A stretch of 64,000 nucleotides of DNA, from assembly GCA_016789265.1 (NCBI GenBank), contig JAEUQK010000020.1, positions 62,001 through 126,000 on the forward strand, read 5' to 3'. Origin of the DNA: Blastocatellia bacterium. GTDB lineage: Bacteria; Acidobacteriota; Blastocatellia; Pyrinomonadales; Pyrinomonadaceae. The position numbers and the translations under genes are program-made. Under the pieces are notes generated by a model, which saw only the letters and a list, made by a program, of their open reading frames with translations, did not search any database and had not been told where the DNA came from. Shown here one piece after another: positions 62,196 through 64,000 of the stretch; the first letter of the stretch is position 1; each line of letters opens with the position of its first letter.

Positions 62196-63377
62196 TTATT
62201 GTTTCTTTCGCAGAGTTACAAGTATCGCGTCGCCGATCCTTCGCTCGCCTTCTTTGTCGGACGGCGTGTTGACGACCTTGCCGTCAAGGTACATCGTCGT
62301 CGATCCGCCGCCGTCGAGGTTCATCGCGTCGACTGCTCCGAGCGAGAGAAGGTAATCGGCAAGGTCCTGAAGCGAAATACCGCCGCTCGATTCGCTTCGG
62401 CCATCGACAGTGATCATCAGAAACTTGCCGTCCTTCAGCTTCGCCACCGCCGTCCGCGGATGACGTGTTTCGACGAACGACTTGCTCGTCTTCTCCTGCT
62501 CCCATGTGATTTCGATCTTGCCGTCGCGGATCAGCTGTGGAATTCCGTTGGTGATGTCCTCGGCTCGCGAAAATGCCTGCGTCGTTCGATCGGTATCCTT
62601 ATTGGGAAAACCATTACTTCCTACGGTGAATGGAGTGGCAGCGTTTGCCCGCACTTTAAACCCTATACGAATAGACCTGATCCGGTCCGCCAATTTGCCT
62701 GAAGCTGAAAGCACATATCCATTTGGAGGGATCGGACTGCTGCCGCCAACAACGACCCTAACCACCTTTCCTTTTTCGACAATTATCTCAACACCATTTG
62801 GATCAGTCAGTGTAGTTCTTCCAAACTCGGATGTATATTCGATCAATTCGTCTGCCTTTCGTTCGCGGTTTATTCCCGACACACGAAATTCTTCAGAACC
62901 GATCTTTGCCAGAGTGTAAAGATCGAGATGAGCAAAATTGACGTTTGTGACATTCGGATCGAAATTGTCGATAAAGATCGCGATCCGGTTGTTCAAGCTT
63001 TCGCTTAGGGTTCTATGATCTATTACCAGGGTTCCTGCCGCTTCTCCCGCCCAAAGGCTGCTATCCAGCCTAAAGAACCCGGCGTTAATAGCAGCAACAG
63101 CGCCGTGGCGTTTTGCGATGGACGAGGTTTTCTCCATTCCGATCGCGGCGTCCATCGCATGACGGACATCGAGCCGCACTTGGGTCAGATCAAGCCTTAA
63201 GAGATTGATGTTTACGTTGAGGCCGCTGATCTCTTTTCTGACTTGGGCGTACTCGACGCCTGGGTGGAGTTGTTTGAAGTCTTGGGCTTGGGAATAGCCC
63301 CCTAGAGCACAGAGAACACAAAGGGTGAAAACCAGATTTGGCTTTGCAGCGAATTTAATGAAGTGTTTCTTTATCAT
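62196..63377 (-). CDS. Secreted phosphodiester glycosidase (NAGPA domain)
   Basis: 393 aa from the ATG at 63375-63377. The NAGPA domain (about 80-390) shows AAINAGFFRLD and the C-terminal AMNLDGGGSTTMYLDGKVVN. It likely removes phosphodiester-linked sugars from envelope glycans. The frame is open 26 codons further upstream, but that part encodes SEPPAYAGG from a GC-rich palindrome and is not coding. The signal-peptide core (FTLCVLCALGG) is encoded by a CACAGAG-type repeat. Confidence 0.9.
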   Translation of the reverse strand: MIKKHFIKFAAKPNLVFTLCVLCALGGYSQAQDFKQLHPGVEYAQVRKEISGLNVNINLLRLDLTQVRLDVRHAMDAAIGMEKTSSIAKRHGAVAAINAGFFRLDSSLWAGEAAGTLVIDHRTLSESLNNRIAIFIDNFDPNVTNVNFAHLDLYTLAKIGSEEFRVSGINRERKADELIEYTSEFGRTTLTDPNGVEIIVEKGKVVRVVVGGSSPIPPNGYVLSASGKLADRIRSIRIGFKVRANAATPFTVGSNGFPNKDTDRTTQAFSRAEDITNGIPQLIRDGKIEITWEQEKTSKSFVETRHPRTAVAKLKDGKFLMITVDGRSESSGGISLQDLADYLLSLGAVDAMNLDGGGSTTMYLDGKVVNTPSDKEGERRIGDAILVTLRKKQ

Positions 63378-63448
63378 TAGTATTGTTTGGGCTATTGCGA
63401 GCCGCCCGCCCGCATACGCAGGCGGCTCCGAACCCGGTGTTCTCTGTG
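63308..63448. repeat. Pair of inverted CACAGAGAACAC repeats enclosing a GC palindrome
   Basis: CACAGAGAACAC (63308-63319) and GTGTTCTCTGTG (63437-63448) are exact reverse complements. Between them GAGCCGCC (63399-63406) pairs with GGCGGCTC (63421-63428). The left arm lies inside the glycosidase signal-peptide coding sequence. Confidence 0.8.
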
Positions 63449-63475
63449 ACCTCATAGGCTATATATTAAAGGTAG

Positions 63476-64000
63476 ATGCGGATCAACGAAAGAGTTGTTC
63501 AGTTGAATGATAAAGCGCCGAATGCGAATGCGCGGTACGTTTTGTATTGGATGCAGATGTTCAAGCGGACGTCTTACAACCATGCCTTGATATGGGCGAT
63601 ACGGAAGGCGAATGAACTGAAGCTGCCACTCGTGGTTTACGAGGGGTTGAAATATTACTACCCGTGGGCGAGCGACAGGATCCACACATTTATTCTTGAG
63701 GGGGTTGAGGAAAAGCGAAAAGAGTACGAACGTCTTGGCATTCGTTACATCTTTTATCTTCAAAATTATGAAAGCTCACAGAAGAACACCGTTGCAGCGT
63801 TGGCGAAAGATGCTGCGTTGATCGTGACGGATGATTTTCCGTGCTTCATCATTCCCGGACATAATCGGCGCGTTGCCGAACGCGCTGAGATCCCGGTTCA
63901 CGCCGTCGATTCGAATGGCATCATTCCGATGTCAAAATTCGACAAGGAAGAGTACGCCGCCTATACGATTCGCCCGAAGATAAATAGACTGCTTGGAAAT
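63476..64000 (+). CDS. Class II CPD photolyase (deoxyribodipyrimidine photo-lyase), partial
   Basis: 175 codons run from the ATG at 63476 to the window edge without a stop. The N-terminal domain matches class II photolyases: RYVLYWMQMFKRTSYNHALIWAI, a PLVVYEGL strand, YYPWASDRIHTFILEG and VTDDFPCFIIPGH. These enzymes repair UV-induced pyrimidine dimers using FADH and light. AAAGGTAG precedes the ATG. The FAD-binding helical half lies outside the window. Confidence 0.9.
   Translation, partial: MRINERVVQLNDKAPNANARYVLYWMQMFKRTSYNHALIWAIRKANELKLPLVVYEGLKYYYPWASDRIHTFILEGVEEKRKEYERLGIRYIFYLQNYESSQKNTVAALAKDAALIVTDDFPCFIIPGHNRRVAERAEIPVHAVDSNGIIPMSKFDKEEYAAYTIRPKINRLLGN

Follow-up and report, generated by a model that had tools for sequence, protein, structure and literature searches.

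A palindromic repeat across the start of a NAGPA-domain gene in Pyrinomonadaceae and its likely contribution to a predicted signal peptide

The NAGPA locus and its palindromic element

The window analyzed here is a stretch of 64,000 nucleotides (nt) from a Blastocatellia bacterium of the family Pyrinomonadaceae (Acidobacteriota; GenBank assembly GCA_016789265.1, contig JAEUQK010000020.1, positions 62,001 to 126,000 of the forward strand). Close to its end lies a gene for a NAGPA-domain protein, and a palindromic element spans the 5' end of this gene so that one of its arms codes for the hydrophobic core of a predicted signal peptide (Table 1). The domain was identified by a Pfam profile search, in which PF09992 scored 131 bits against a curated cut-off of 25 (E 6e-38). 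The start codon, ATG at 63375-63377, was picked by inference and gives a protein with the N-terminus MIKKHFIKFAAKPNLVFTLCVLCALGGYSQAQDFK. An alternative in-frame ATG at 63455 was rejected as the start; it falls within the left-arm region and would add a leader not seen in orthologues. The leader was judged by eye and by a home-made rule on composition for a charged n-region, a hydrophobic core and small residues before the cleavage site, and is a candidate Sec signal. The A-Q junction at the putative site is kept across orthologues.

Table 1. Features at the 5' end of the NAGPA gene and around it (positions in the window)
Feature	Position	Strand	Size	Remarks
NAGPA-domain (phosphodiester glycosidase) gene, predicted exported	62196-63377	-		Pfam PF09992
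Predicted signal peptide MIKKHFIKFAAKPNLVFTLCVLCALGGYSQA	63285-63377	-	31 residues	From sequence; cleavage before QDF judged by eye
Complete palindromic element	63294-63462		26-nt arms, 117-nt loop	Encloses the start codon and n-region
Right arm, pyrimidine-rich, CTTTGTGTTCTCTGTG	63308-63323	-	16 nt	CTT TGT GTT CTC TGT G, read as LCVLC(A); hydrophobic core
Left arm, purine-rich, CACAGAGAACACCGGG (mRNA sense)	63433-63448	-		5' leader, upstream of the ATG
Second palindromic repeat, AGCCGCCCGCCCGCATACGCAGGCGGCT	63400-63427			Different sequence, nested in the loop of the first
DNA photolyase gene	63476-64000	+		Pfam PF00875, E 3e-8; divergent from NAGPA, continues past the window end

An earlier, sequence-only reading had proposed that the core is encoded by an interspersed repeat with an inverted mate upstream. 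The observation of a repeat-coded core is confirmed, and its interpretation is supported with corrections. The mate is present: the 12-mer CACAGAGAACAC occurs exactly at 63308-63319 (+) and 63437-63448 (-), where 0.18 matches per window with at most one mismatch are expected by chance, and the surrounding 26-nt arms are 77% complementary and separated by 117 nt. What needed correction is the extent of the coding part, as the 12-mer alone encodes only V-L-C and, incompletely, the C and A on either side, but the 16-nt arm, in frame with NAGPA from residue 19, encodes L-C-V-L-C and part of the A. Since the left arm lies in the 5' untranslated leader, the start codon is placed inside the hairpin loop. 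Folding of 63284-63468 (minus strand) as RNA gave -73.5 kcal/mol (z = -5.76), and 0 of 200 shuffles were equally stable.

The palindrome nested in the loop also belongs to a family, with 10 matches in this genome and presence in 34 of the 41 genus genomes (controls zero). This second palindrome (CCGCCCGCnTACGCAGGCGG) was likewise observed within the loop of the first one in the orthologues L040, L047 and L303, and in L052 it codes for signal-peptide residues.

A dispersed repeat family in the genus and beyond

The description as an INTERSPERSED repeat fails for the exact 12-mer, of which this genome has just two copies (CACAGAGAACAC with at most one mismatch gave 22 matches against 14 in a reversed control), but stands for a longer, degenerate consensus. 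With one mismatch, the consensus CTCTGTGTNCTCTGTG was found in 39 of the 41 genus genomes, reaching 73 copies in genome G007, compared with 0 to 2 per genome in the controls. This family, here called F1, is dispersed and multi-copy and consists of inverted pairs able to form a stem-loop. The best places of the 16-mer CACAGAGRACACAGAG in this genome were mainly intergenic inverted pairs. A check suggested by the sequence-only reading, for other exported proteins with the same repeat core, found none in the 30 of 48 places read. Among the matches listed in a scan of the genome collection, F1-type sequence was present in many phyla. Sequence-string and term searches of a collection of open-access papers found none on an F1-type repeat family.

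The element loci fetched (n=94) comprised all those listed for genomes G001, G011, G013, G022, G024, G040 and G041 and two of G017, with the two of G002 omitted. Most elements were intergenic; they often followed a stop codon directly or stood ahead of a start codon, many of them immediately. This distribution would suit an element merely tolerated upstream of or over the start, with a nearby alternative start exporting the protein equally well. Such an explanation is improbable, as the NAGPA proteins, and the M16 peptidases considered below, have no other hydrophobic segment on the way from the arm to the mature domain.

Copies of the element were also identified in frame inside genes, namely the PrmA gene of L158 (a PrmA profile match with the element within the open frame) and the ABC transporter-like genes of L126 and L179 (identified by reading). 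Together with additional in-frame copies in L153 and L102, these give the residues ATEnTE ... SVnSVA and resemble Rickettsia palindromic elements. In L344-L373, many elements start directly after a stop codon (TAA, TAG or TGA, then CCACAGAG), which suggests insertion at or near gene ends.

Position and codons of the arm in NAGPA orthologues

Searches for NAGPA orthologues were positive in 25 of 40 relatives and in 12 of 19 further genus genomes, three of the 19 being negative in both rounds. The right arm, allowing at most three mismatches, was detected in 20 of the 34 same-genus orthologues and in none of 34 gene-interior controls. The core of L052 uses the other, nested-type palindrome with 0 mismatches, which brings the orthologues with a repeat to 21/34. 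Where scored, the offset of the arm relative to the conserved G[VIL]E is -63 and/or -54 nt, in the same 9-nt register, the exception being L306 at -71. The left arm is often found directly 5' of the ATG, where the open frame reads it as ATEnTE or TTETQR.

Codon usage within the arm follows the repeat. Leucine is encoded by CTC at 36 of 47 positions, compared with 28% in gene bodies (p = 7e-12), and cysteine by TGT at 30 of 42, compared with 38% (p = 2e-5), although related genes do not supply independent codons in either comparison. Orthologues carrying the same residues with unrelated codons, which the earlier reading had named as contrary evidence, were not seen; those with LCVLC or LCALC keep the repeat codons. 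The arm-free orthologues mostly have unrelated cores rich in A, L, F and V (e.g., TLAIFAAVFANFAVAQ), and the cores of L049 and L051 are degenerate and repeat-like. Of 36 anchored orthologues, 20 have a photolyase gene upstream; they comprise 16 of the 19 in which the arm was then scored as present and 4 of the 17 in which it was not.

Leu-Cys-Val cores are ordinary in signal peptides and could resemble the repeat by accident; at least one cross-phylum match, the LCVLCAL of a Prevotellaceae hybrid sensor (L239), is possibly a coincidence of this kind. For NAGPA, however, the non-coding left arm in the leader, the codon bias, the near-fixed register and inverted-repeat scores never attained by shuffles leave chance convergence with very little probability.

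Pairing between the two arms

Across 15 orthologues with both arms, the two arms of one genome paired with each other at a mean of -38.6 kcal/mol, compared with -33.0 kcal/mol for mixed arms; a mean this low arose in 1 of 20000 permutations. At L051 and L301 both arms are altered, to CATAG/CTATG forms. The mature NAGPA proteins have a median terminal branch of 0.64 changes per site, a divergence that makes passive survival of both arms unlikely. Palindrome correction during replication is a known process able to keep arms matched. Either this process or selection on RNA pairing would explain the matching of the arms.

The second of these processes could also mean that the mRNA hairpin itself was selected, with the arms pairing across the start codon for translation control or export coupling and the encoded residues as a by-product. 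The co-variation of the arms, the stability of the window leader (z = -5.76) and the persistence of both arms despite large protein divergence are consistent with this explanation. We nevertheless consider it unlikely, as the loops vary widely, those of L039, L040, L047 and L303 having a second palindrome inserted, and 14 of the 34 orthologues manage without an F1 arm. Moreover, correction of the DNA palindrome would yield the same arm matching.

Repeat arms in other exported proteins

Arms of repeat families were also found in a second family of exported proteins, the M16 peptidases of the genus. Among the 25 best loci, which were read, 11 had an arm of one of three repeat families ahead of the mature protein: F1 in L449, L451 and L469; F2 (CTCTGYGT, present in 36 of 41 genomes) in L450, L453, L456, L459, L461 and, weakly, L465; and F4 in L452 and L468, the latter in this genome. 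The F4 repeat (GCCTTTTTACTTTT...) has 2 to 11 copies per genome in five genomes, compared with 0 to 1 in the control, and these few copies make it weak as a repeat family. The search for arms of a further family, F3, was confined to the genus. In the genome of the window, one exported gene besides NAGPA (the M16 peptidase gene at G000:C40:48910) uses a palindromic repeat different from F1. In L450, L453, L459 and L461 both arms lie within the signal peptide, the left arm forming the charged part and the right arm the core.

Across the M16 leaders L449-L473, the signal peptides of one orthologous family are apparently assembled from several interspersed repeats. Additional M16 cores resemble other, presumed repeats, namely RIADCGLRI (L466, L472), FQISHFRLQI (L465), SSIFGLWSFVI (L455), ILHFALCIF (L454) and SLSPCLLVF (L456, L462). 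Among these presumed matches, a long inverted repeat was found in L454 alone.

Long inverted repeats running into the core (score of at least 12) were identified in 13 of 34 NAGPA loci, 5 of 25 M16 loci and 0 of 18 loci of a neighboring exported metalloprotease family, which was equally negative by arm count (0/18). The corresponding shuffled controls gave 0/340, 0/250 and 0/180.

A scan of 396 genomes of the phylum, in which 86 of the places listed for the sense arm were kept, gave 61 read-through cases and 8 frames of at least 100 residues. Four of these begin with signal-peptide-like sequences on peptidase-type proteins: L379 (M16), L339 (M1; weak, below the Pfam cut-off), L406 (M14) and L407 (M1 N-terminal domain). 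With the antisense arm as control, there were 98 places, 64 read-through cases and 11 long frames, none of them signal-peptide-like (Fisher p = 0.018 among long frames). In the scan across phyla, 80 loci among the matches listed contained 86 ATG-arm pairs that led to 8 frames of at least 100 residues, five or six of which carry export signals as judged by reading. These include CcmH (L221), a sulfatase (L247), a SASA esterase (L263), a lipoprotein-like protein (L196) and a glycosyl hydrolase 88-like protein (L259), in addition to the doubtful hybrid sensor mentioned above.

Origin of the signal peptide core

The coding properties of the arms offer a simple account of why such repeats recur at this position. 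All F1 sense frames are stop-free and hydrophobic (LCVLC, SVFSV and LCSLC, with mean Kyte-Doolittle values of 3.0, 2.0 and 1.7), whereas each antisense frame is polar (-2.0 to -3.8). The sense frames of F4 are similarly hydrophobic (1.8 to 2.4), those of F2 are weaker and those of F3 are not. Because the pyrimidine arm is stop-free and hydrophobic in every frame and its complement is polar or charged, an element lying across or just inside a start codon readily supplies a core. Since complementary codons have opposite hydropathy, a palindrome of this type tends to give a polar stretch and then a hydrophobic one, which is the layout of a signal peptide.

Altogether, there is good support for a palindromic repeat as the source of the NAGPA signal core, and we put at roughly three in four (0.76) the probability that a repeat across the 5' end of the gene in an ancestor within the genus gave this core. 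The element would have come to lie over the 5' end of NAGPA in an ancestor within the genus, presumably by insertion. Its left, purine-rich arm would then have become the 5' leader, the loop would have provided the start codon and n-region, and the right, pyrimidine-rich arm would have been translated as the hydrophobic core. The arms have since drifted yet stayed complementary, presumably through intramolecular palindrome correction or selection on the mRNA hairpin.

Several observations weigh against this origin or limit its reach. Four orthologues (L049, L051, L056 and L305) have the photolyase synteny but no recognizable right arm. The arm has a patchy distribution on a tree of poor resolution, where arm and photolyase together need 9 changes and supported branches force at least 6 of these; repeated loss or regain, or transfer, may therefore stand in place of a single insertion. 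A single clean insertion could not be shown on the NAGPA tree, where erosion, loss and regain are indistinguishable. The leaders of the orthologues are too divergent for an empty-site comparison. As to the recurrence in other genes, the NAGPA and M16 families were both found via the repeat, which biases their rates upward, and the difference between M16 and the neighboring family (5/25 vs 0/18) is marginal (p = 0.064). Marginal, too, is the phylum scan when all read-through pairs are compared (4/61 vs 0/64, p = 0.054).

An unselected survey covered 464 kb with 338 called genes and 94 signal-peptide-like N-termini, as delimited by home-made gene and signal-peptide callers. Only 2 of the 94, those of NAGPA and of G047:C7 54430, were convincing, with a long palindrome that reaches into the core. 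The other N-termini gave 0 of 244 at palindrome level 13 and 2 of 244 at a level of at least 11, and the comparison of 2/94 with 0/244 is again marginal (p = 0.077). The proposal that many signal peptides of these genomes are repeat-coded was rejected on this survey, and two further arm matches under lax criteria (G007 97837 and G000 22425) seem to be coincidental. Repeat-coded signal peptides are thus rare overall and recurrent in certain genes.

A wider scheme can be outlined tentatively, in which bacterial palindromes read across a start, by giving a charged n-region ahead of a hydrophobic core, are natural generators of signal peptides, exported genes such as NAGPA and M16 repeatedly swap signals drawn from several palindrome families, and the start-codon hairpin is kept to link initiation with export. 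We regard this as possible rather than probable.

Relation to known palindromic elements

The use of dispersed palindromes within coding sequence has precedents. Rickettsia palindromic elements (RPE) were reportedly described in protein-coding genes by Ogata and colleagues in 2000. In the parts of the literature drawn on here, RPE are dispersed palindromes of about 100-150 bp found in frame inside many genes (PMC2229807; PMC10969869). By description, the F1 family is like RPE in its in-frame copies inside the PrmA and ABC transporter genes; as far as those descriptions go, RPE lie within unrelated genes, whereas the right arm in NAGPA is the core of a predicted export signal.

A closer parallel is the Yersinia palindromic sequence YPAL/RU-2, which, in the portions of the reports consulted, makes up part of the signal peptide predicted for YPO1552, the homologues of other genera having unrelated signal peptides (Delihas 2007, PMC2759123; PMC2229807). 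In NAGPA, likewise, repeat-element sequence is part of the signal-peptide reading frame, and orthologues without the element have unrelated signal peptides. Unlike YPAL/RU-2, which appears in those portions as a 168-bp miniature inverted-repeat transposable element (MITE) with one main case, the family described here is a palindrome with a 9-nt period, and one site is kept across many species. Also unlike YPO1552 as presented there, other repeat families serve a second gene family, and the NAGPA start codon lies inside the hairpin loop. Bacterial MITEs and repetitive extragenic palindromic (REP)-type palindromes are, in the text consulted, short, multi-copy, stem-loop forming and mostly intergenic (PMC10969869), and the likeness of F1 to them consists in these traits. 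Given the YPO1552 and RPE precedents, the NAGPA case varies a known theme with another repeat family, one site across a genus and a start codon within the hairpin.

Signal peptides evolve fast, and where they came from can seldom be traced. In the present case the DNA still shows the raw material, and repeat-derived signal cores recur in unrelated genes and phyla. The hydropathy of complementary codons is a simple physical reason for which a palindrome can become an export signal. These observations suggest a simple route by which new protein-export tags arise from repeats, and thereby an evolutionary use for dispersed palindromes commonly viewed as junk.

The divergent photolyase gene

On the other side of the element, an AT-rich stretch, TATATATTAAAGG, was observed at 63449-63476, immediately before the photolyase ATG. 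In orthologues, TATAAT-like motifs lie very near the photolyase starts, and a leaderless transcript is possible.
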